From positions 1 through 52,308 of the IMG/VR virus record IMGVR_UViG_3300044726_000110: 52,308 bases of DNA. One strand, 5' to 3'. The DNA is from a virus. How positions within the stretch are numbered: position 1 is the first letter of the stretch; every line of letters begins with the position of its first letter. The position numbers were made by a program, and so were the translations under genes. The notes under the pieces are model-generated. The model made no database searches, had not been told where the DNA came from, and saw nothing but the letters and a program-made list of their open reading frames with translations. Positions 2,485-44,957 of this stretch are shown here, piece after piece.

Positions 2485-2664
2485 TTATACCGGTGTCGGT
2501 GTGTTGCGCTCCATGCGTAGGAGCGCCTCGATTGTGAAGCCCAGATCCGCCTGCTCGCAGAGCGAATTGCAGTAGGTGAGCTTGAGGGATGCGTGCGACT
2601 TGTTGTAGTCGTACGCGCCATTGCAACGCTTGCAATGGCGTAGTGGGATGCGGGCATCCTGCAT
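2485..2664 (-). CDS. Cys-containing mini protein (59 aa)
   Basis: Short gene read by hand: it starts with ATG 2664 (MQDARIPLRHCKRCNGAYD) and ends with TAA at 2485. CKRC with later CNSLC makes a plausible four-Cys zinc ribbon (HCKRCNGAY then YCNSLCEQ). It fills the space between the neighbouring genes with only 2 bp to the stop of the upstream gene, and its end abuts the two-tier hairpin, which supports it over the longer arginine-rich frames on the same strand. Confidence 0.68.
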   Translation of the reverse strand: MQDARIPLRHCKRCNGAYDYNKSHASLKLTYCNSLCEQADLGFTIEALLRMERNTPTPV

Positions 2665-2666
2665 GG

Positions 2667-2978
2667 TTAGAGTCCTTTCGCTTTTTGTGTGGCGATGAGG
2701 ATTTCGTTGACCTCATCGGATGTGCGGTAGGCGGCTATGCCGTCCGGCCCCGTGGGTACGCCCTCGACTTCGTGAGTGGAGAACTTGGTGCCGATCGTGT
2801 GTCCAGTGGCGACCTCGTAATTGCGGTGGCCGTCGCTGTACAGCAGCCTGCACGATACTACGCTCACGGTGTAGCCGTTGTCGTAGTGAATCCGCGCGGC
2901 TGTGCAGCCACCGAGTGGGTGGCTGCGATGTTCACCGAACTGCGCGAGCGCAATGTCGGTGACACCATAATTATCCAT
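2667..2978 (-). CDS. Hypothetical protein (103 aa)
   Basis: Start at ATG 2978 overlaps the stop of the upstream gene by 8 bp. The sequence (MDNYGVTDIALAQFGEHRS, then TVSVVSCRLLYSDGHRNYEV) looks beta-rich, ending with a short helix (DEVNEILIATQKAKGL). No membrane segment or known motif. Translationally coupled with the Cys-rich gene before it and the 59-aa gene after it. Confidence 0.64.
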   Translation of the reverse strand: MDNYGVTDIALAQFGEHRSHPLGGCTAARIHYDNGYTVSVVSCRLLYSDGHRNYEVATGHTIGTKFSTHEVEGVPTGPDGIAAYRTSDEVNEILIATQKAKGL

Positions 2979-3171
2979 GACTGTGGTCCTTTCGCTTTTT
3001 GGCGTACCGCCAGCAAGTGGGGCACAACGCGACTGCAAATGCAATCGTGGTGGCTATCGCGCGGTTACAACAATCGCACAAATAGAGCCTCCTGGGTGTG
3101 GTGGGCGTAGGGCCGGTGAGCAGGTGTGGATCAACCGGACGTGGTTGCGTCTCGGTTGTTGTGTGCTGCAC
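2971..3171 (-). CDS. Zinc-ribbon-like mini protein (66 aa)
   Basis: GTG start at 3171 is the only reasonable start but lacks a convincing ribosome site. After a Pro/Thr-rich N-terminus come LCDCCNRAI and ALCPTCWRYAKKRKDH, a CxxC...CxxC pair about 18 residues apart, typical of a small zinc ribbon. The basic C-terminus could touch nucleic acid. Function unknown; nothing enzymatic is visible. Confidence 0.62.
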   Translation of the reverse strand: MQHTTTETQPRPVDPHLLTGPTPTTPRRLYLCDCCNRAIATTIAFAVALCPTCWRYAKKRKDHSHG

Positions 3172-3212
3172 CGGCCCCGTGCCGATTGCGATTGCGAGTG
3201 CTGCGGTTACAG

Positions 3213-3262
3213 CGCTGCGTGGTGGCGGTGAGATCTAGCAGTCTCACAGCCACCACGCAGCG
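3213..3262. other. Long two-tier hairpin
   Basis: A perfect 14-bp stem (CGCTGCGTGGTGGC with GCCACCACGCAGCG) topped by a second 6-bp stem (GTGAGA/TCTCAC) and an 8-nt loop. It sits between the stop at 3296 and the start at 3171 on the leftward strand and follows a second hairpin. Perfect pairing over 14 bp in a 52-kb genome is not expected by chance. Role is probably termination, processing or leader control. Confidence 0.65.
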
Positions 3263-3281
3263 GGCGATCTAGGTGATCGCC
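3263..3281. terminator. Short hairpin after the 33-aa gene
   Basis: Stem GGCGATC/GATCGCC with a 5-nt loop, directly adjoining the 3213-3262 hairpin and 14 bp past the stop of the 3296-3397 gene on the minus strand. Reads as the first part of a tandem hairpin terminator; no U-tract. Confidence 0.45.
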
Positions 3282-3295
3282 GCGCCGGGGTGTGG

Positions 3296-3397
3296 CTAGT
3301 AGGCGAGCGCTTGGGAGAGTGCGGCCTGAGCGTAGAGGATGATCGTGGCGACTATCGTCGCCAGTACGAACGCTCCGAATAGTGCGTGCCAGATCAT
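3296..3397 (-). CDS. Single-span membrane mini protein (33 aa)
   Basis: Read by hand: ATG 3397 overlaps the stop of the upstream gene as ATGA; TAG ends at 3296. The product begins MIWHALFGAFVLATIVATII and is one hydrophobic segment of about 22 residues followed by LYAQAALSQALAY. Such peptides are common in phage early operons and can modify the host membrane; no homology is claimed. The exact ATGA coupling and the hairpin right after the stop are the main support. Confidence 0.6.
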   Translation of the reverse strand: MIWHALFGAFVLATIVATIILYAQAALSQALAY

Positions 3398-3546
3398 GCG
3401 GCGTGGTTACCTTTGAAACGCCGTACCTGCACGCAGGTTTCCCCGCGTACTTCCCCGCAATATTGCGGGCGCATCAGCGCGGGCAGTTCCCATGTCCACG
3501 ACGCGAATCGTCGTAGCGGGACGGCCTGACAGAACGAACAAAGCAT
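3394..3546 (-). CDS. Small Cys-containing protein (50 aa)
   Basis: I start at ATG 3546, preceded by GGGAGATCTCT on the minus strand, because the upstream extension is made of the GCGATTGCAAG tandem repeat and looks non-coding. The product MLCSFCQAVPLRR has a CxxC pair at residues 3-6 and later YCGEVRGETC, giving a possible four-Cys zinc site. It is coupled by ATGA overlap to the 33-aa membrane protein. Confidence 0.58.
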   Translation of the reverse strand: MLCSFCQAVPLRRFASWTWELPALMRPQYCGEVRGETCVQVRRFKGNHAA

Positions 3547-3569
3547 AGAGATCTCCCGTGTGGTGTGGC

Positions 3570-3646
3570 GCGATTGCAGGTGCAAGATTTGCGAGTGCAA
3601 GCACGATCTGCGACTGCAAGCGCGATTGCGATTGCAAGCAGAGATC
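3570..3646. repeat. Four imperfect 18-21-bp tandem repeats
   Basis: Units start at 3570, 3591, 3610 and 3628 and follow GCGA-N-TGCA(A/G)G(C/T)-N2-GAT. They occupy the 5' region of the 3394-3546 gene. The core GATTGCAA also recurs sparsely elsewhere in the left block. Could be protein-binding iterons or the remnant of a leader; no ORF in the repeat is convincing. Confidence 0.6.
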
Positions 3647-3699
3647 GTGGGGTGTGGTGTCACACCCTGTGGAGGGGAGATAAAGTTGCATGGGGAAAT

Positions 3700-3722
3700 G
3701 GCGCCCCTCCGCTCGGGGCGCC
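3700..3722 (-). terminator. Terminator of the 3730-4203 gene
   Basis: Perfect 8-bp GC stem GGCGCCCC/GGGGCGCC with a 7-nt loop, 7 bp beyond the stop at 3730. On the minus strand it is followed by ATTTCC, on the plus strand by TTT, so it may work in either direction. Confidence 0.65.
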
Positions 3723-3729
3723 TTTCCTG

Positions 3730-4203
3730 CTAGAAACGCGAGCTACGCGTTACCGGTGCGGTGGCTTTGGCCGCCTTTTCTACCAGCGTGATGATCACGC
3801 CCGCCATAACACGCTCGACCGAAATAGCTCCGGTGCGGGCGTCGCGGTACTCGACAACGTTGTCCGAGGAACGGAAATCGACCCGGAATTGACCCGGTGC
3901 GCTTCCAAGTTCCACCGACGCGGCGAGCGCGGCGCGGCTGAAGATGTGCCGCAATTGGTTGCGGTCACCTTCGTAGATCGGCTCAGCGCGTACCGCCGTC
4001 TTGACCGTGGGGTCGTCCGCGAAGATCGGCCATGCGCGAAGGGTGACTTTGCCAGCGGTTTTGGCGCTTGCAAGCACGGTGCGTGCAAATTCGATCTGGC
4101 GGGCGTCCGCGGAGCCAGAGGCTTCGATGAGCGCGAGCAGGTCTACAGCGGGGGCGGTAGGGGCGGCCGCAGCCACCCCCTTATCGAGGGTGGACTCGGC
4201 CAT
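3730..4203 (-). CDS. Hypothetical protein, first of the leftward block (157 aa)
   Basis: ATG 4203 (MAESTLDKGVAAAAPTAPAV) has GAAAGG upstream on the minus strand; the open frame beyond it crosses the G-quadruplex tract and is rejected. After a low-complexity Ala/Pro N-terminus (about 1-25) the protein has a helical region, then a beta-rich segment with FRVDFRSSDNVVEYRDA and a hydrophobic VMAGVIITLVEKAAK near the end. No family recognised. It is the gene nearest the control region and probably the most strongly transcribed of the block. Confidence 0.66.
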   Translation of the reverse strand: MAESTLDKGVAAAAPTAPAVDLLALIEASGSADARQIEFARTVLASAKTAGKVTLRAWPIFADDPTVKTAVRAEPIYEGDRNQLRHIFSRAALAASVELGSAPGQFRVDFRSSDNVVEYRDARTGAISVERVMAGVIITLVEKAAKATAPVTRSSRF

Positions 4204-4260
4204 GCTAGGGCAAAACCTTTCTGCCGCGTGCGTACGCGGTACGTGGGGCCGCCCCCGCGT

Positions 4261-4286
4261 GGGGCGGGGGTGGCGGGGGCGGGGGG
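4261..4286 (+). other. G-quadruplex-forming motif
   Basis: Plus-strand G runs of 4, 5, 5 and 6 separated by C, TGGC and C, 58 bp upstream of the first leftward gene. This satisfies the usual G3+N1-7 pattern four times. Because the gene is read leftward, the G-rich strand is the template. Folding is inferred from the pattern. Confidence 0.6.
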
Positions 4287-4340
4287 CCGTGGCCCCTTGG
4301 AACTTCCTCATTGTAACAAAATATTCCTTGATGTACGCTC

Positions 4341-4749
4341 GTTATGTATCCAAGTCGATCTTCGCGCAAAGCTTAACACTTCGTAGTTATGTCAACGTCC
4401 GTAGGTTCACGGGGTGACATAATAGATCGTTGTGTGAGGGGGTGCCGACAGATCCCTTCCATAACGTGTACTAGACTTATGTCAAAATGAACGTATATTC
4501 ACTGGATTATGTCACCCCACGAGTCTGGAGATGACATAAGGTATGTGAGATCCGAGCACACATCGGATCCGAATATGGTGGGGTGTGCGTTCGGATCTGA
4601 GTCTGGGGGTGACATAAGTTTTGACGGATCAATATGGGGCGCACAACGCGTTATGTGGACACCCTCTCACAGAGAGACATAACGTTGGTCGATCATATAG
4701 ACATAAGTATCTTGACATAACGCGCATGGGTCCCACTCGTTATGTCAAG
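4341..4749. repeat. Cluster of TTATGTC / GACATAA sites
   Basis: About thirteen copies in both orientations. TTATGTC-type at 4387, 4477, 4507, 4741 (forward) and, as GACATAA, at about 4416, 4533, 4611, 4676, 4700 and 4714; degenerate copies at 4342, 4460 and 4651. Three share the longer GGGGTGACATAA (4411, 4506 inverted, 4607). Outside the cluster the 7-mer is rare and falls inside genes. Looks like an array of binding sites (repressor, origin or partition protein). Confidence 0.8.
4711..4749. repeat. Perfect 12-bp inverted repeat within the site cluster
   Basis: CTTGACATAACG at 4711-4722 and its exact reverse complement CGTTATGTCAAG at 4738-4749, 15 bp apart. Each arm contains one GACATAA site and a TTGACA hexamer. 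This is the strongest pair in the array and could bind a protein co-operatively or form a hairpin. Confidence 0.7.
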
Positions 4750-4915
4750 CGTGGTGTGTAGTTCACCAGGAGAACAATCCGAGTACGATTTTCAAAACCG
4801 AGATAATCGCCCAGGGGCGCATATATATTTTTGCAAAAAATCCAAATTGATCGCCTAGAGCGGGCCGGCCCAAAATGCATGTTCGCGAATCGGTCAGTCC
4901 AGGAGATATAAGGAA

Positions 4916-4956
4916 GCCCTCATGACTCATTCACCACAAAAATGAATCATGAGGGC
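4916..4956. terminator. Long hairpin, 15 of 16 pairs
   Basis: Left arm 4916-4931 (GCCCTCATGACTCATT), right arm 4941-4956, one C/A mismatch, 9-nt loop rich in A. On the leftward strand it ends about 50-90 nt downstream of the promoter at 5010-5039 and is followed by TTCCTTATA, so it may end a short leftward transcript. Confidence 0.6.
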
Positions 4957-5009
4957 CAAAGGAGAGCGCGAGCGTGTCTCGGGGGAGGTCGTTACTCGTC
5001 GCAATACAG

Positions 5010-5039
5010 AGTATAGTTCACGGGGGCACCTATTGTCAA
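5010..5039 (-). promoter_or_regulatory. Strong leftward sigma70-type promoter
   Basis: Minus strand TTGACA (5039-5034), 18-bp spacer, TATACT (5015-5010). The -35 is perfect and the -10 matches five of six positions. It points at the TTATGTC cluster and the left gene block. Its -35 lies within a 15-bp palindrome, so repression there is expected. Confidence 0.7.
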
Positions 5040-5043
5040 TAGG
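5029..5043. promoter_or_regulatory. Palindromic operator over the -35
   Basis: CCTATTGTCAATAGG: 7-bp arms around one T. It covers the -35 hexamer of the leftward promoter, the usual place for a repressor dimer. The binding protein is not identified; the HTH proteins at 5774, 8060 and 50556 are candidates. Confidence 0.55.
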
Positions 5044-5113
5044 CTACTCCGTAGTATAGACAGCTTCTATGGAGCCAGGAATGTCTACAACGGCGTCTAC
5101 GGAGTTGTAAACT

Positions 5114-5216
5114 GTTTACAAAACGGCCTTTTAGGTTCAAACCCGAACCCGCCTCGTATACAAAACCCCTTTCTAGGTTCAAACCCGAACGCCCCTCGTA
5201 TACAAAACTCTTTACC
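5114..5216. repeat. 42-bp direct repeats, about 2.5 copies
   Basis: AGGTTCAAACCCGAAC recurs at 5133 and 5175, and GTATACAAAAC at 5156 and 5198, both with a 42-bp period; TTTACAAAACGG at 5115 starts a diverged copy. The period is a multiple of three, so reverse frames stay open, but no start with a ribosome site supports coding. GGTTCAAACCC resembles a tRNA T-arm sequence; no tRNA is present. Confidence 0.65.
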
Positions 5217-5254
5217 TTCGGCCAAAAACCCATACACCGACGCATAAATATGCA

Positions 5255-5284
5255 TAGACGCCACCCGCAGTCCCGTCATATAAT
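5255..5284 (+). promoter_or_regulatory. Possible rightward promoter
   Basis: TAGACG (5255-5260), 18-bp spacer, perfect TATAAT (5279-5284). No gene starts close downstream; the first hairpin (GCTTAC-GAA-GTAAGC, 5318-5332) and a strong hairpin at 5421 follow, so a short non-coding RNA of about 155 nt could be made. Speculative. Confidence 0.4.
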
Positions 5285-5420
5285 TGCTCTGCGCAGCAGC
5301 CAAGAAATGATCGAGTAGCTTACGAAGTAAGCAACGAGTAGGATTAAGGAAGCCTCGGGAAGTCACCCGTATCAGGACGCTGATCGGACCACTCATTCCT
5401 AGAGGCCCAGCGGTGGCACT

Positions 5421-5446
5421 GGCCGGTCGGGGGCACCCGACCGGCC
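5421..5446 (+). terminator. GC-rich hairpin
   Basis: Perfect 11-bp stem GGCCGGTCGGG/CCCGACCGGCC with a GGCA loop, 15 bp before repeat copy a. No T-run follows. It separates the control region from the accessory cassette and may insulate it from upstream transcription. Confidence 0.55.
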
Positions 5447-5460
5447 CAACCCGCAAGTTC

Positions 5461-5480
5461 ATCACTGCCTCAATACCGAT
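5461..5480 (+). repeat. Dispersed 20-bp repeat, copy a
   Basis: ATCACTGCCTCAATACCGAT, forward. It shares two further bases (TC) with copy d, so a and d form a 22-bp inverted pair enclosing 5461-9259. It lies 14 bp upstream of the -35 of the 5529 gene promoter. Confidence 0.85.
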
Positions 5481-5493
5481 TCTCGATTGCGCG

Positions 5494-5522
5494 TTGCCAA
5501 CACCAAGTGGGCATGCTATTAT
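5494..5522 (+). promoter_or_regulatory. Promoter of the metzincin cassette, leaderless type
   Basis: TTGCCA (5494-5499), 17-bp spacer, extended TGC-TATTAT (-10 at 5517-5522). Six bases then separate the -10 from the GTG at 5529, so transcription would begin at or next to the start codon. Matches the layout upstream of 9691 and 44957. Confidence 0.7.
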
Positions 5523-5528
5523 AGAGGC

Positions 5529-5774
5529 GTGGAAGTTAACGCTAAAGATGCCCTCTGCCCCGGCTGCGATTGTCCCTTCACTGAGCACTATGCGTCAGTT
5601 GCGGGACCGATCCGCTGTACGAGCGTTGGCATGATCATCCTGGGCACCTACACCCGGTGTGATTGCCTCGACTACGTCAGCGCCGCCGTATCGCGGCACC
5701 GGAAGCGGGTCGCGGACTCACTCGAACTTCACAAGCAACGCGTCGATCACATCTTGCGGAGGTTTCGGAACTAA
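5529..5774 (+). CDS. Zinc-ribbon-like protein (81 aa)
   Basis: Start taken at GTG 5529, which sits 6 nt past a good extended -10 and gives VEVNAKDALCPGCDCPFTEH; a longer ATG start at 5487 would place the promoter inside the gene. CPGCDCPF and a later CDCLDY pattern with intervening Gly-rich strand suggest a small zinc-binding domain of the CxxC...CxC type seen in many phage and GC-rich bacterial mini proteins. C-terminal half is a basic helix (HRKRVADSLELHKQRVDHIL). First gene of a three-gene accessory cassette. Confidence 0.62.
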   Translation: MEVNAKDALCPGCDCPFTEHYASVAGPIRCTSVGMIILGTYTRCDCLDYVSAAVSRHRKRVADSLELHKQRVDHILRRFRN

Positions 5775-38642: not shown

Positions 38643-39031
38643 CGCGTCGCCTCGGTCGGACGCATGCCGGTGGGTTCGGGCGGCGTATGGGCGCTCTGCT
38701 TCATGATGGCGGCGTTGATCTGCTGGCCGCGCTCCTCGGTTACGCATGCCTCGATGAGAACAGCGTAGTTCACGAGGTCACCGATCTTCTCGTCCCACAC
38801 GGCTTGGCTGTGTGACTGCGGCTGTCGGACCATGTCCGCTACGCTGACGATGTGCTTTACCATCATGCCCCACGCGGCCTGTGCTGGCGACTCGCCTTTG
38901 AGGCCACCGGCGGCGTGGAAGTTGTGTAGGCGATCATCGCCGGGTGCGTACTCCTTCGCTTTGGAATCGAGCACCTTGCGGGTAAGCTCGATCCGGCGCT
39001 CTAGTACGTCGGTGAACTCGGAGGGGGTCAT
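38639..39031 (-). CDS. DUF1599/Nmad1-like protein (130 aa)
   Basis: TCATGA overlap with the upstream exonuclease gene. KAKEYAPGDDRLHNFHAAGG, then MMVKHIVSVADMVRQP and VWDEKIGDLVNYAVLIEACV match the DUF1599 pattern (RLxNF-x-mKHxxSixDm-EKixDxxNY). It is associated with nucleotide modification or NTP hydrolysis in phages. Assigned from memory of the family pattern. Confidence 0.7.
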   Translation of the reverse strand: MTPSEFTDVLERRIELTRKVLDSKAKEYAPGDDRLHNFHAAGGLKGESPAQAAWGMMVKHIVSVADMVRQPQSHSQAVWDEKIGDLVNYAVLIEACVTEERGQQINAAIMKQSAHTPPEPTGMRPTEATR

Positions 39032-40185
39032 GAATCGTCTCCATCTGGCGTTGGGAGCGCGAGGCTCGATACGTACACACGGGAGGAGGGTTCGCCCTCT
39101 TTGTAGGGAACCTCGAATCCGTGCTTGGCGGCTAGGGCAGACAGCGCGACCGTGTCGATCCCGCGCCTGCCCTTGACTGTGCCGTGCTTGACCTTGTAGC
39201 CCTCGGTGTAGAGTTGATAGCCACGGTCAACGGCTGACAGGATCTGGTCCCTGATCTCGCTTTTCTCCGCTCGGAGGGCGGATTCCCTCTCCGATATATC
39301 TCTGTATTGGGCCGCGAGATCGTCGAGGTGCCCTAACATTTTTGGGTTCGGCGGTGCCATCGTTGGGATGGCGTCGAGGTCGATAGTCTCGGACTCGGAC
39401 AGGCCAAGGAAGGCGGGACACTTGCCCTTGAACGGGCACCAGAAGCATTCCGCCTCGCGCCCATTAAAGCTCGGTTTCGGTATCCGACCCTCGTCCATCT
39501 CCTGGATCACTTCGATGTGTATACGGGCGTTGCTGCGCTCGAAGAATTCGTCATCCGGCTCGATGACACGGAAGCAGAAGTGGCTCGTCTCTTTGTTGTA
39601 GGCGCACACGAGTACCCACGACGGGCGGGCGATCCCCTTGGCGAGGACGGCGCGGAACTCGCCCGACTCCCACAGTTCATCCGACTTCACGTCCGAGAGT
39701 GTGTGGATGTACTCTTGTGTTTGGCCGTAATACTTGCGCATGAGGGTGTTCCTCATGTCGAAGCCGCGCTCTGCAAAGATCTTGTAGTTCGTGTTGTTGA
39801 GCGCCTTGGCTTCCAGCACCGCTGTCTCGCCACGGATTAATCGTTCGAGGGCTTCACCCGGTAGCCGCTCGAACAGCCAAGGGGTGATGTTGGCGAGGTC
39901 GCTGATCGCGACGATGGCTCCGTCAGGGTGGCCGGTGCGGTAGGGATCCTCGTGCGCTATCTCTAGCTGGGCGGATCCTGGCATCTCGGTGAAGTAGAGG
40001 TCGAGTCCTTGGTCGGCGCACATCTGCACGATCATGGGTTCCAGCGCCTTGCCGACACGGAACGCTACGTTGTTGTAGTCAGCCACCTTTTCGGTGCCTA
40101 TGAGTTCGTGGTAGATCTCGTGGGAGCACATGTCGCCCCACGACATGCGGACTGCGCCGGTGCCTTTGCGTGGTATAGGTGCCAT
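39028..40185 (-). CDS. Cas4/RecB-like PD-(D/E)XK exonuclease (385 aa)
   Basis: ATG 40185 (MAPIPRKGTGAVRMSWGDMC). TGHPDGAIV and AVLEAKALNNTNYKIFA supply the D and E-x-K of the nuclease motif. C20 with CFWCPFKGKCPAF (CxxC-x5-C) near the C-terminal third forms a likely Fe-S cluster as in Cas4/AddB. A long helical end (IPTMAPPNPKMLGHLDDLAA, DISERESALRAEKSEIRDQI) follows. With the RecA-like ATPase it would make recombination ends. Confidence 0.78.
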   Translation of the reverse strand: MAPIPRKGTGAVRMSWGDMCSHEIYHELIGTEKVADYNNVAFRVGKALEPMIVQMCADQGLDLYFTEMPGSAQLEIAHEDPYRTGHPDGAIVAISDLANITPWLFERLPGEALERLIRGETAVLEAKALNNTNYKIFAERGFDMRNTLMRKYYGQTQEYIHTLSDVKSDELWESGEFRAVLAKGIARPSWVLVCAYNKETSHFCFRVIEPDDEFFERSNARIHIEVIQEMDEGRIPKPSFNGREAECFWCPFKGKCPAFLGLSESETIDLDAIPTMAPPNPKMLGHLDDLAAQYRDISERESALRAEKSEIRDQILSAVDRGYQLYTEGYKVKHGTVKGRRGIDTVALSALAAKHGFEVPYKEGEPSSRVYVSSLALPTPDGDDS

Positions 40186-40186
40186 G

Positions 40187-40462
40187 TTAGTCCACCACGT
40201 TCCCTTCACCGATGGTGCAGTCCGCGATGGAGACATCGAATGCGATCTTCATGTCGCGGACAAGCTGGTGAAAGCGGTTGACGAACCAGTCGGCGTGCGG
40301 TGATGGCGTATCAGCATTATCACCGAACTTGTCTTGGATGGCGCGGATCTTCTTGATGCGCTCGAAGTCGATCACTTTGCACGCGAGGCCAACCTCTGCG
40401 ACGGCGAGCATGTCGGCGGTGAAGCCAGCGGCGTCGGCGGTGCTTATAGGACGTGGTTGCAC
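40187..40462 (-). CDS. Hypothetical protein (91 aa)
   Basis: GTG start at 40462, with CAAGGAG upstream; the promoter at 40481-40509 lies just ahead. MQPRPISTADAAGFTADMLA, IDFERIKKIRAIQDKFGDNA, VNRFHQLVRDMKIAFDVSIA: a small helical protein, no family. It heads the transcription unit leading into the exonuclease and ThyX genes. Confidence 0.6.
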   Translation of the reverse strand: MQPRPISTADAAGFTADMLAVAEVGLACKVIDFERIKKIRAIQDKFGDNADTPSPHADWFVNRFHQLVRDMKIAFDVSIADCTIGEGNVVD

Positions 40463-40480: not shown

Positions 40481-40509
40481 AGTATACTATGCCGCGAGCG
40501 AGTTGTCAA
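40481..40509 (-). promoter_or_regulatory. Leftward promoter ahead of the exonuclease-ThyX unit
   Basis: Minus strand TTGACA (40509-40504), 17-bp spacer, TATACT (40486-40481). The -35 lies in GTTGACAAC, a 9-bp sequence present at three other leftward promoters. The -10 lies across the polymerase stop codon. Confidence 0.7.
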
Positions 40510-41278
40510 CAGGTCGCCACGTGCTGCGCGGATATGGGTGCTTGTCGGGATCGAATCCCTTGACCGTTCCCCACGATTGTCCGAACTCGAAATCCACGAA
40601 CACGGGAACCTTGAGGGTGACGGCGCTTGCCATGATAGCGGGGATGGTTTCCGCGAGCCACTGCACTTCGCCGTCCGGTGCCTCTATGACTATCTCGTCG
40701 TGGACAAGCGCTATGATTTTGCTAGCGCAGTTACTAGCCTTCATGAAGCGGTACACACGGAGGGCGGCAGTCTTGAAGTAGTCGGCAGCCGAACCCTGGA
40801 TCGGGTGGTTGATGGCACCGCGCTCAGCCTCGCCGCGCTTCTCGAAATCGCGGGACGTTATGTCGGGGAAGTAGCGCCGCCGCCCCATCATGGTTTCGGC
40901 GTACCCGTTGATCTTGCAGAACTTGATCGTGTCAAGCTGCCACTCGCGCCAGCCGGGGTAGGCATCGTAGACGCCCTTGATGAAGCTGTCGGCTTGCTCA
41001 ATGGTCAGGCCCAAGGTGGGTGTGCGCTTGAGGAGGCCGTGCCCTGCCATGCCGTAGGCTACCCCGAAGTTCACGGTCTTGGCGACGAGGCGCATATCCT
41101 TGCGGCGCTTCACGGTCGGCTCGCCACGGGCTAGTTCGGTGGCGAAGATCTGGCGGATGGTGTTCTCGTGAATGTCCCCGCCCGGTCCAAGTTCGCGGAT
41201 CATGGACTCGTCCCCGCTCAGGTGGGCCGCGATACGCATCTCTATTTGGGACAGGTCGATAGCGCATATCTTACTCAT
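40487..41278 (-). CDS. polA: DNA polymerase A, catalytic C-terminal part (263 aa)
   Basis: ATG 41278 (MSKICAIDLSQIEMRIAAHL) begins right at motif A (D-x-SQIEMR). Motif B is MRLVAKTVNFGVAYGMAG (R, K, F, Y of the O-helix) and motif C is IALVHDEIVIEAP. Ends RPVDNSLAA. The N-terminal palm start and thumb are absent here; they lie in the 42107-43924 gene with four small genes between. Start codon is in a 4-bp overlap with the previous stop, so it is translated by reinitiation. Confidence 0.85.
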   Translation of the reverse strand: MSKICAIDLSQIEMRIAAHLSGDESMIRELGPGGDIHENTIRQIFATELARGEPTVKRRKDMRLVAKTVNFGVAYGMAGHGLLKRTPTLGLTIEQADSFIKGVYDAYPGWREWQLDTIKFCKINGYAETMMGRRRYFPDITSRDFEKRGEAERGAINHPIQGSAADYFKTAALRVYRFMKASNCASKIIALVHDEIVIEAPDGEVQWLAETIPAIMASAVTLKVPVFVDFEFGQSWGTVKGFDPDKHPYPRSTWRPVDNSLAA

Positions 41279-41460
41279 GGTGCGTACGGCCCATGCATGT
41301 CCTCTTCGCGAGGCTTGAAATATCCGCAGTTGCAGCACACGACCCCGATGAGCGTCTCCCATAAGAAGAAGCCTTTTAACTTGCCGTGGAAGCAGTGGTA
41401 CGGCGAGTTAACGATGCCGCCGCAGTTGGTTACGCGACGATCAGGTTTGGGTATCGCCAT
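41275..41460 (-). CDS. Zinc-ribbon-like insert gene (61 aa)
   Basis: ATG 41460 (MAIPKPDRRVTNCGGIVNSP). NCGG and later VVCCNCGYFKP form a possible Cys4 site. It lies between the two polymerase halves, coupled at both ends. Not a homing endonuclease by sequence. Function unknown. Confidence 0.58.
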   Translation of the reverse strand: MAIPKPDRRVTNCGGIVNSPYHCFHGKLKGFFLWETLIGVVCCNCGYFKPREEDMHGPYAP

Positions 41461-41461
41461 G

Positions 41462-41638
41462 TTAGTCCTCACGTTTCCAAGGCGTGACGCTCCAGCGCTC
41501 GCCTAGATACAACATGTACTCACGGGTAGCACCGCACCAGATGCATCCTTCGATGCCGGTAGTTGTGAAGATGCGGTGGTGTTCGTGGTACTGAGCAGGC
41601 CCGTGGATCCCGAGTTTGCAGAACAGGCGCTTAAACAT
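41462..41638 (-). CDS. Small basic protein, polymerase insert (58 aa)
   Basis: ATG 41638 (MFKRLFCKLGIHGPAQYHEH) overlaps the end of the previous gene by 8 bp. Pattern CKLGIHG...HHRIFTTTGIEGCIWCGA: the CxxC (CIWC) with HG and HH may bind zinc. No family recognised. Confidence 0.58.
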   Translation of the reverse strand: MFKRLFCKLGIHGPAQYHEHHRIFTTTGIEGCIWCGATREYMLYLGERWSVTPWKRED

Positions 41639-41834
41639 TCCAGCCATCCTCTTTGTTGAGTCGTGCAATGATCAGTTCGGCCTCGGCCGCGAGATCTCGT
41701 GGGGCCACCTTGTTGTCGCGGCCAGCGTAGGCGGCGCATTCGTGGTAGCCGTTGTCATCGGCCAGCCGCCACTTGCCGTCCTGCTTCTGCTTCCATGACA
41801 GATCAGTTGCCTTGCAGTGCTTGCAGTCAGGCAC
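41631..41834 (-). CDS. Zinc-ribbon mini protein, polymerase insert (67 aa)
   Basis: MPDCKHCKATDLSWKQKQDG starts with a CxxC pair; the second Cys group is absent except HECAAYAG. An acidic C-terminal helix (RDLAAEAELIIARLNKEDGW) follows. Overlaps its neighbours by 8 bp on both sides. Unknown. Confidence 0.58.
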   Translation of the reverse strand: MPDCKHCKATDLSWKQKQDGKWRLADDNGYHECAAYAGRDNKVAPRDLAAEAELIIARLNKEDGWNV

Positions 41835-42114
41835 GATCTATCACCCACGGTATGTGTAGGTAGCGCGTGGTGTCATCACGTGGAGTCTGTACGTCTAGCG
41901 GAATCGTGACCCTGCTTCTGAGTATCAGTGCGCCCCATACGTGGATTTGTGCGACCATCACCTCATCCAGGTAGAGGCCGGGTGGTACCTCAAGCCTAAA
42001 GTTACCGGTAACTGTGCCTTGGTCGTTCCTGACGTTATGTACCTTCGGGTTCCACCAGCGATAGACTGGTCGCTCCCTCTTGCCACGGGCCAAGATAACT
42101 TGATGCTCATCCAT
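41827..42114 (-). CDS. Hypothetical protein, polymerase insert (95 aa)
   Basis: ATG 42114 overlaps the polymerase N-part stop by 8 bp, coupling it. MDEHQVILARGKRERPVYRW, beta-rich TGNFRLEVPPGLYLDEVMVA and a C-terminal PWVIDRA. No known motif. First of the four inserted genes. Confidence 0.58.
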   Translation of the reverse strand: MDEHQVILARGKRERPVYRWWNPKVHNVRNDQGTVTGNFRLEVPPGLYLDEVMVAQIHVWGALILRSRVTIPLDVQTPRDDTTRYLHIPWVIDRA

Positions 42115-43924
42115 TGTCAGGCTCCATTGGTGCAATGAACGCGTTGCGGATGAGTGAGCCATCCACCTCGAAGCTGAGGTCGTCGCGCTTGCGGGCTGGT
42201 ATGTTGGTTTGGTTAGGGTTGGCTGAGGCGAACCGTCCGGTCGCCACCGATGCCTGCTTCACCTCGCTGTGTATGCGACCGGCGTTATCCATCCACTTCG
42301 GGAGTCCCTCGATGTAGGTACCGAACATTTTCTGGATCGCCTTGTAGGTGAGGATGTCACGGACGAGGGGGTTGGCGGAGTACGGTGCGAGGGATACCTT
42401 GTCAGTCGGCATCGCCTTCTGGTTCTTGGTTACGCGGAACGTGGGGATCTGGTGTTCGGTCGGCCACACGTAGAGCGCGTTCTGGACCTGCTGCCAGGAT
42501 CCGGGATTGAAGCGCACACCCTTGTTCTTCTTGTCGGCGGGTGGAGCAAACTCATCTACGACTTCCATGATGCGGGCGTACACTGCCTCTAGGCCGGTGC
42601 GGAGGTTCGCGGCGGCTTCGGTGAGTTCGTTGGGGTCGAACAGCATCCCGTTCCGCTCGACCTCGATGACTACGTCGTTAACGGGCACTTCGAGATCAGC
42701 GTACAAGTCCCACTGGTTACGTTCCTCAAGCAGATGCTTAAGGACGTAGTAGAGGCGCAGCGAAGCGTCGGCATCTTGGGCGGCGTAGGCCACGACTGAG
42801 GGGAAGTCGGCGTCTTGAGCGGCTCGCATATCGACAACGTAGTTACCACTTCGGGGATCCTTTCGCTTGAAGCCTCGATCATAGAAGGTCTTGATCTTCT
42901 GCATCTCGATGCCAGTGGCTAGGTGAAAGCCGTCTTTCAGGCCGAGTGGGTAGTCGCCCGCCACCCACGCCATGAGCATCGTGTCATCCCAATTCTGTAG
43001 GTCGATCCCGTACCCGTGGCAGATGTGTCGCTCGAACTTGGCGTTCGACACGATCTTGAGATGCTCGGTGGACTCTAGCTGTGGCTGGATCATGACCATG
43101 ACCGCTTCGGCTTCTGCGTCATCCTCGAAGGGGTAATACAGGCCGTCGCCGGGATCAGCACAGACACCCAAGCCGATGACCTTCGCGCCGCGCATGCCTT
43201 GGTCGTTGTCATAAATTTCATCACCGCTGTCGTCGGCACCGTTGCCGGTATCGGTTTCAAGGTCGAAGCCGAAGATGGGTGCTTCCACGGCGCGGCGGAT
43301 CTCATCCAGGGTTGCCACGGTGCGGCGGAACGGGAGCGCGTTCGTCTCGTACTTGCCAGTCCGCATAATGTCTACGGCTTTGTGAAGATCCTGCCGGAAC
43401 AGCGGCGTCCAATACTGCGGGTTCTGCTGCACGAATATGGGCTGCACGGTCGGTATGATGTATCGGTCCTTGCCCCATAGGTGGCGCTTGTAAACATTGC
43501 CCCGGATCTGGAGGAGGCCAGCTTCGTCGGGCAGCATCTGCTTGACGGCAGCAGCGCCAATCACGAGGATAACGATTGGATCAACTGTCTCGCCCTCCTC
43601 ATCCAAGTAGGGGCGGCAGATGCGGGCCTCGACGTTGAGGACTTCACGATCCTTGAGGGGGCGGCAGTGGACGATGTTCGTGCGGAAGCAGTCGCGGTCC
43701 ATGTCTACGTGCATCGTGGACAGGTGGTGGGCCAGGATCTGGCCTGTCTCCCCAGCGAGGGGCTTACCGATTTGGTCCTCTCGTACGGCGGGGGCCACGG
43801 AGACGATCATCATGCGGGCATCGTGGTTGCCGTACCCCGGCACCACACGGGTGCGATGCTCACTGAGGGGGCATTTTTTGCAGCCGAGTAGGCCGTCGAG
43901 GAACATCGGTAGTGGTTCACTCAT
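42107..43924 (-). CDS. UDG-like domain, 3'-5' exonuclease and DNA polymerase A N-part (605 aa)
   Basis: Residues about 5-185: a family-4 uracil-DNA glycosylase-like domain. It keeps the iron-sulphur Cys pattern (CKKC at 15-18, then VHC and RIC) but SVAPAVRED replaces GEAPGxxED and PTVQP replaces the usual PTxHP, so glycosylase activity is doubtful. Then a DnaQ-type exonuclease: FGFDLETDT, VSNAKFERHI, YAAQDADASL. Last part is the thumb and start of the palm, with TGRFASANPNQTNIPAR, ending at IRNAFIAPMEPDNG where the split occurs. Works with the 40487-41278 product as a two-chain polymerase. Confidence 0.85.
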   Translation of the reverse strand: MSEPLPMFLDGLLGCKKCPLSEHRTRVVPGYGNHDARMMIVSVAPAVREDQIGKPLAGETGQILAHHLSTMHVDMDRDCFRTNIVHCRPLKDREVLNVEARICRPYLDEEGETVDPIVILVIGAAAVKQMLPDEAGLLQIRGNVYKRHLWGKDRYIIPTVQPIFVQQNPQYWTPLFRQDLHKAVDIMRTGKYETNALPFRRTVATLDEIRRAVEAPIFGFDLETDTGNGADDSGDEIYDNDQGMRGAKVIGLGVCADPGDGLYYPFEDDAEAEAVMVMIQPQLESTEHLKIVSNAKFERHICHGYGIDLQNWDDTMLMAWVAGDYPLGLKDGFHLATGIEMQKIKTFYDRGFKRKDPRSGNYVVDMRAAQDADFPSVVAYAAQDADASLRLYYVLKHLLEERNQWDLYADLEVPVNDVVIEVERNGMLFDPNELTEAAANLRTGLEAVYARIMEVVDEFAPPADKKNKGVRFNPGSWQQVQNALYVWPTEHQIPTFRVTKNQKAMPTDKVSLAPYSANPLVRDILTYKAIQKMFGTYIEGLPKWMDNAGRIHSEVKQASVATGRFASANPNQTNIPARKRDDLSFEVDGSLIRNAFIAPMEPDNG

Positions 43925-44126: not shown

Positions 44127-44316
44127 TTAGGATCTCCAGCTTCTCGCCGCAGAACGGGCAGTAGGTGACCGGAATCCGTACGATGTCCATACCACCTGGA
44201 TCGGTGGCTACCAGTCGCCAGCTTGTCCATGTTGAATCAAAGGTCAGCCGCAGCGGTTCGTAGATGCCGTCACATATGTGACTGGTCGAGTAGTTGAGTT
44301 CTATTAGGACGCTCAT
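44119..44316 (-). CDS. Small protein with CPFCG motif (65 aa)
   Basis: ATG in overlap with the methyltransferase stop. Beta-rich start MSVLIELNYSTSHICDGIYE, then PVTYCPFCGEKLEILIG: a CPxCGxxL zinc-ribbon end typical of small phage proteins. Unknown. Confidence 0.62.
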   Translation of the reverse strand: MSVLIELNYSTSHICDGIYEPLRLTFDSTWTSWRLVATDPGGMDIVRIPVTYCPFCGEKLEILIG

Positions 44317-44957
44317 CGCCGGTTCCCCATGATGGTGAGGTACTCGTGGATCATTGGGATCTCTAGTCCGACGTGGCCGTTCGACATTGTCTTGTGTTGA
44401 ATCTTGATAATGCGCAACTGCTTTTCGAGTTTGCAGCGCACCATTCGGTGCTCAGCGGTGAGATCGTCGGTGAGGAAGTAAGTCCTTGTGCTGCGTTTAA
44501 GGCGTAGGTCAGCAAGCAGGAGGGCGATCCGTCCATCAGTGCTGAGCAGAGTTGCCAGCCACTTGAGGATATCTTCGCTGCGGGCGAGGAAGCTGTCGTA
44601 TGTTGGGGCTTGAGAGAGGTCATTCTCATCATGTGTGTACCCGATCATGTTCCAGTAGGGAGGGTGCCAGAAGATGAGGTCCACGCCCGCATCCGGTAGC
44701 TCGTGTTGGACGCCCTGACGCACGACCTTCTTCATCACGTCGCCGCCCTTGCGGATGTCGGTGGCGTACCACGGGACTTTGAGATGCTCGCACACCTCGC
44801 CCGTGGTTCCGCCGCCGTGCATCGGATCGTATACGAAGCCGGGTTGGTAGGTTTCGATGAGGTCTTTGATCAGGTAGCCCGACACGTTGCCACGAAAGAG
44901 TGAGTCACCGTACGGGCCACGGTTGGGGTAAGAGGCTACGGAGTCTGCAAATGCCAT
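44313..44957 (-). CDS. DNA methyltransferase (214 aa)
   Basis: ATG at 44957, 5 nt after a TAAAAT -10, so probably leaderless. FVYDPMHGGGTTG is the AdoMet-binding motif I; LIFWHPPYWNMIG is motif IV, here HPPYW instead of the usual (D/N/S)PPY. Target-recognition region unknown. Could protect phage DNA or act as an orphan amino-methyltransferase (N6A or N4C cannot be separated). Catalytic His in place of Asp/Ser/Asn is a caution. Confidence 0.74.
   Translation of the reverse strand: MAFADSVASYPNRGPYGDSLFRGNVSGYLIKDLIETYQPGFVYDPMHGGGTTGEVCEHLKVPWYATDIRKGGDVMKKVVRQGVQHELPDAGVDLIFWHPPYWNMIGYTHDENDLSQAPTYDSFLARSEDILKWLATLLSTDGRIALLLADLRLKRSTRTYFLTDDLTAEHRMVRCKLEKQLRIIKIQHKTMSNGHVGLEIPMIHEYLTIMGNRR

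Follow-up and report, generated by a model that had tools for sequence, protein, structure and literature searches.

The DNA examined here, called the window, is a viral record of 52,308 bases (IMG/VR record IMGVR_UViG_3300044726_000110) in which a family A DNA polymerase (PolA) is encoded in two separate parts. All genes of the polymerase locus lie on the minus strand. The upstream part specifies an N-terminal chain (N chain) and the downstream part a C-terminal chain (C chain), with four small open reading frames (ORFs) in the gap between them. The features are given below in coding order, the coordinates of the gap ORFs being those obtained with the preferred start codons.

42107-43924, minus strand: N chain, 605 amino acids (aa), with a family-4-like UDG domain, a 3'-5' exonuclease domain, the thumb and the first part of the palm as far as IRNAFIAP, then the tail MEPDNG (from Pfam and alignment to Klenow)
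41279-42106, minus strand: gap from the N-chain stop to the C-chain start, 828 nucleotides (nt), with four small ORFs
42112-42125, minus strand: Shine-Dalgarno-like site of ORF1 (GGAG, 7 nt, ATG), as read from the sequence
41827-42114, minus strand: gap ORF1, 95 aa, orphan; ATG start; 8-nt overlap with the end of the N chain
41631-41834, minus strand: gap ORF2, 67 aa, orphan, CxxC at its start; GTG start; 8-nt overlap with ORF1
41462-41638, minus strand: gap ORF3, 58 aa, Cys/His-rich; ATG start with AGAGGA upstream; 8-nt overlap with ORF2
41275-41460, minus strand: gap ORF4, 61 aa, Cys-containing; ATG start with GAGGA upstream; its stop shares ATGA with the C-chain start
40487-41278, minus strand: C chain, 263 aa, comprising the palm and the fingers (match to Pfam DNA_pol_A at positions 151-380, 1e-66)

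A first-pass annotation, made from the sequence alone, had placed two polymerase parts at this locus, and Pfam confirms both. The N chain matches UDG (3e-17), DNA_pol_A_exo1 (5e-8) and positions 26-149 of DNA_pol_A (PF00476); the C chain takes up the same profile at position 151, so that a single position is missing. Coverage of PHROG 17 (DNA polymerase) is similar, with 472-1004 in the N part and 1007-1241 in the C part. The C chain starts with the ATG at 41278, reads MSKICAIDLSQIEMR and ends at 40487; motifs A (DLSQIEMR), B (K-x2-NFGVAYG) and C (VHDE) are all present in it, in line with the annotation, in which both halves were said to keep their active-site motifs. No essential polymerase segment is missing from the two chains. 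When they were fused in silico, the product could be aligned end to end with the unsplit polymerases of two related genomes, L024 and L025, with nothing lost and 5 extra residues at the junction, while the N chain also aligns with Klenow chain positions 21-374. At the break the N chain has 6 extra residues and the C chain about 3. The N chain ends with ...TGRFASANPNQTNIP...SLIRNAFIAPMEPDNG and the stop codon at 42109-42107, and the junction that reads ..SLIRRAFTAPPGWSICGIDLSQIEMR.. in L024 is replaced in the window by ..SLIRNAFIAPMEPDNG, stop, and MSKICAIDLSQIEMR.. at the start of the C chain.

Predicted on its own, the C chain has a predicted local distance difference test score (pLDDT) of 90.2 and superposes on the palm and fingers of the Bacillus Pol I large fragment with a template modelling score of 0.82-0.84 over the chain. 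Identity to L024 is 61% for the C half and 58% for the exonuclease domain, compared with 55% and 52% between L024 and L025, and on these figures the divergence of the window halves is not accelerated relative to unsplit relatives. A profile search of the window for family B and C polymerases found neither PF00136 nor PF07733. The lack of a second polymerase, the ordinary divergence, the intact motifs and the precedents for split enzymes together suggest that the split PolA is the working polymerase of the phage.

The break lies between Klenow chain positions 374, where the N part ends, and 378, where the C part begins, which places it, as the annotation had proposed, between the early palm and motif A. 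On the structure predicted for the unsplit L024 enzyme (pLDDT 88.3) it maps to residues 577-580, between the strands 575-576 and 581-588, the latter of which bears the motif A aspartate, D587. Thus, the model puts the break in a 4-residue loop between two strands, just ahead of the motif A strand.

The four gap ORFs are real open frames. They had been described as all coupled by short overlaps, which is correct with one exception: all six genes from the N chain to the C chain overlap or nearly touch, the neighbours overlapping by 4-8 nt, but ORF3 and ORF4 are separated by 1 nt. The codon composition of ORF1 to ORF4 fits that of the window genes, with 0.007, 0.000, 0.0025 and 0.026, respectively, as the share of shuffles of the same ORF reaching its score; coding support is weakest for ORF1, whose reverse frame scores slightly above the forward frame. 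The Shine-Dalgarno-like site of ORF1 falls within the codons of the extra N-chain tail MEPDNG. The same coincidence of tail and start site is seen in two other phages with a split at this position, the N-chain tail overlying the Shine-Dalgarno-like site of the next gene as tGGAGcctgacaATG in the window (MEPDNG, stop), AGGAGTGAATGATG in L172 (SERSE, stop) and GGAGAATAACATG in MEP401 (RYGE, stop); the tail of L175 is SERSE, as in L172. From their overlaps and start sites, these genes appear to be translated in a coupled manner from independent starts.

None of the gap ORFs has a match in Pfam (above the cut-off), PHROGs or NCBIfam or to a homing endonuclease, in agreement with the annotation, which had seen neither a homing endonuclease nor an intein in the gap. 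Convincing relatives of ORF1, ORF3 and ORF4 were not found in viral contigs, nor of ORF2, ORF3 and ORF4 in phage records, nor of any of the four inside the L024 and L025 genomes. The closest approach is a weak similarity (E 0.07) between ORF3 and a small Klebsiella phage protein.

Relatives with the polymerase in one ORF are L024, L025 and L110/L111; L024, with L025 and L110, is among the nearest. They were reached through the C half, with which alignment-based searches found relatives; the N half alone gave none among the viral contigs, and a megablast search against phages had no match. L024 and L025 share with the window the order methyltransferase (MTase), PolA and Cas4-like exonuclease, as judged by the synteny of the window ORFs with both genomes, and lack the gap. 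The corresponding window genes are:

44313-44957, minus strand: MTase-like gene, upstream of the N chain with small ORFs in between
39028-40236, minus strand: Cas4/RecE-like exonuclease, downstream of the C chain with a 91-aa ORF in between

For a tree of C halves, 194 non-redundant sequences were used, collected by similarity and not a random sample. Of these, 160 are unsplit, eight begin just before motif A, 21 begin at the exonuclease/thumb boundary and 5 could not be assigned. The motif-A splits form three groups, namely the window; L067, L172 and L175; and MEP401, MW202796, MW202697 and QDWS535. Parsimony accounts for them with three changes. The window lies in a 99%-supported clade with unsplit L024, L025 and L110, and L172, L175 and L067 lie in a 97%-supported clade with unsplit L180 and L186; the MEP401 group is well supported and stands apart from the other two. 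The window therefore groups with unsplit relatives and not with the MEP401-type split. Since its close relatives L024, L025 and L110 are unsplit, and L024 and L025 are syntenic on both sides, the split arose on the window's own branch.

Taken together, these observations make it highly likely that the two chains of PolA are translated independently here and come together as one polymerase, and that the gap is a place where small genes can land. A two-chain enzyme had already been thought likely in the annotation, and it is still the best reading after a search for a missing palm or finger segment, which found none. The N chain would supply the UDG-like domain, the exonuclease, the thumb and the first piece of the palm, and the C chain the catalytic palm and fingers. 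Both chains and four small accessory proteins would be translated successively from a single run of overlapping genes, and the chains would then assemble with no peptide bond crossing the palm. The gap would be a tolerated site that small genes enter and leave over time, and the split itself would have begun with the insertion of foreign genes, possibly one for a homing endonuclease that has since been lost. That the chains associate and are active is suggested by analogy with the split T4-type polymerase 43A/43B, which provides an experimental precedent.

Several points weigh against this interpretation. The case for two chains is built on sequence and predicted structure; the gap genes lack relatives; no clear Shine-Dalgarno site precedes the C chain; and parsimony on a quick tree cannot by itself fix the direction or the exact number of origins. 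Furthermore, the negative Rfam result for the gap (no match up to E 1) is weak, as the search also missed the insert in polA of Bacillus phage Goe26, where again nothing was found even at E 1. In that genome (L247, 2510-3430) PolA breaks off after TGRLSSENP, and the insert that follows is well folded, contains an HNH-like ORF and very probably holds a group I intron.

The Rfam result bears on the proposal that the 828-nt gap is itself an intron that carries unusual ORFs and splices itself out, leaving an mRNA for a single polymerase chain. Phage DNA polymerase genes often contain group I introns (PMC11878797), an intron was considered by the authors who described MEP401 (PMC10580990), and a splice restoring the frame is compatible with the window sequence. 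Nevertheless, overlapping ORFs, each with a start site, take up the whole length of the gap, which has no homing endonuclease match, and its folding is no better than that of shuffles (z -0.91), whereas the Goe26 insert gives z -4.0. Moreover, QDWS535 and ICP2_2013_A_Haiti have the same or nearly the same split with nothing to splice, and MW202796 carries seven genes, over 3.6 kb, between the halves. The two phages with nothing to splice show that such polymerases work as two chains, unless these phages use another enzyme. On this evidence an intron in the window gap is unlikely. It is less probable still that the locus is a decayed or chimeric polymerase, its genes being fragments of pseudogenes or the product of misassembly. 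In favour of this, the record is a viral contig and a second copy of the arrangement from a near-identical phage was not found; against it, the motifs are all intact, the halves diverge no more than unsplit relatives do, the overlaps are exact and of the ATGA type, the flanking gene order is that of L024 and L025, and the same arrangement is found in sequenced isolates (MEP401, QDWS535). Joining of the halves by protein trans-splicing can be dismissed almost entirely: split inteins are known from fractured phage polymerase genes (MIJ3 PolB, PMC6892783), but at this locus tails of 6 and about 3 residues fall far below the size of an intein part and refute the idea, and Pfam finds no Hint or intein match. 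A programmed bypass of the gap was also set aside, as programmed bypass is not known to span 828 nt.

A different question is how the split began. A homing endonuclease gene may have inserted first and then been lost, with ordinary small genes taking its place; this is compatible with two chains and is a plausible origin, with the balance tipped slightly against it. Active-site codons are preferred targets of homing endonucleases (PMC2988022), and in ICP2 an HNH-like ORF stands between the polymerase parts that is absent from the same split in ICP2_2013_A_Haiti. In L168 (IMGVR_UViG_3300023443_000216, 2649-5702) PolA has an HNH-bearing intein within motif A itself (..THN followed by SQIEMR). 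However, profile searches of the window gap revealed no trace of an endonuclease, the ICP2 break lies about 15-20 residues upstream of that in the window, and no intermediate was found within the L024/L025 clade.

The split of PolA in the window has parallels in other phages, as the annotation had said of phage polymerases. The Methylophilales phages MEP401 and MEP402 (OP830906, OP830907) have a split family A polymerase with one small ORF in the gap, the interruption being described as possibly an intron, and most of their metagenomic relatives were noted to have split polymerases (PMC10580990). Like the window, they have PolA cut in the same pre-motif-A loop, with two ORFs in the same order and on the same strand, small, ordinary orphan genes in the gap, no recognisable endonuclease, and an N-chain tail encoding the next Shine-Dalgarno site. 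Unlike the window, they have one gap gene instead of four and no UDG domain, and they belong to a distant clade. Alcaligenes phage vB_Af_QDWS535 (OK172329), of the MEP401 lineage, shows the same break between two adjacent family A genes, but these overlap by 1 nt and there is no gap gene. In Vibrio phages ICP2 and ICP2_2013_A_Haiti, the coding sequence of PolA is also broken in two near motif A, and one strain has a gene in the gap; the breakpoint differs, the gap gene is HNH-like and the ICP2 record annotates a join.

Other interrupted enzymes are less similar. The gp43 of T4-related Aeromonas phages (43A/43B) is likewise a replicative polymerase in two genes with inserted DNA between them, but it belongs to family B, and what lies in its gap is either a seg endonuclease or an insert that is not translated. 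In phage 25 the 43A and 43B chains co-purify and are active as a polymerase, and phage Aeh1 has a split nrdA that retains full function (PMC2988022). The endonuclease gene in the gap that is the hallmark of this class was not found in the window. PolA genes of the SPO1/Bastille type also carry an insertion, a group I intron (PMC11878797), which differs in having a structured RNA, usually a homing endonuclease, and a single chain after splicing; the Goe26 break is well upstream of that in the window.

The suggestion that the arrangement may be new can thus be retained in part. The same family A break has been published for MEP401/402 (PMC10580990), and it is seen here in another, environmental clade, but the independent origin, the UDG-fused polymerase and the four gap genes are particular to the window. 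The two-part polymerase is real but not unprecedented; more novelty lies in the convergence on one hot spot. We consider it probable that the pre-motif-A loop is a recurrent fission point, cut independently in at least three lineages to give two working chains, with a gap in which small genes of fast turnover dock, and that the exonuclease/thumb boundary is used likewise in many UDG-polymerase phages. No description of repeated use of the loop with varying gap contents was found in a literature search limited to open papers. A polymerase that tolerates cuts a few residues from the catalytic aspartate, repeatedly and in unrelated phages, points to a natural assembly point in the palm. Biotechnology could take such enzymes over as split polymerases made by nature, and they provide a clean system for studying how foreign genes settle in essential genes without killing them. 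The window case also weighs against an intron as the explanation of the published MEP401 split.

Motif-A gaps contain 0, 1, 2, 4 or 7 genes across phages. That of MEP401 holds one small orphan ORF and that of MW202697 an R67-type dihydrofolate reductase. The C half of MW202697 (L244, 2489-3253) has an apparent frame break in an A run near motif A of the deposited record, possibly a sequencing error. The ICP2 gap ORF is weakly HNH-like (HNH_3, E 0.008, below the Pfam cut-off), and in ICP2_2013_A_Haiti 9 nt separate the parts. L172 and L175 encode the UDG in a gene of its own; their exonuclease-thumb ORF ends with ..IRQAFVSERSE and a stop, and ahead of the C chain, MV(D/E)CSLLALD(Y/F)SQIE, there is either one small ORF of 96 aa or a pair of 60 and 58 aa. 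The stand-alone UDG ORF of L172 (1263-2882) has an apparent intein just ahead of CRTNEKDRDP, which is absent from L175.

The second recurrent split separates UDG-exonuclease from thumb-palm-fingers and was seen in L041, L061, L112, L115-L118, L121, L123, L127, L129, L136-L138, L147, L152, L213 and L228. Its gaps range from an overlap to 2.6 kb and hold varied genes: that of L041 contains an MT-A70 methyltransferase, that of L061 small ORFs.

Two features of the N chain itself deserve mention. The UDG domain is its most divergent part (43% identity to L024); the cysteines are kept, while VSVAPA replaces GEAPG (GQSPG in L024) and QPIF replaces the HPA of relatives, so that the domain may be catalytically dead. 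At the Exo II position, Klenow has Asp (NLKYD), whereas the window, L024 and L025 have Glu (NAKFE/NVKFE), which may change proofreading.

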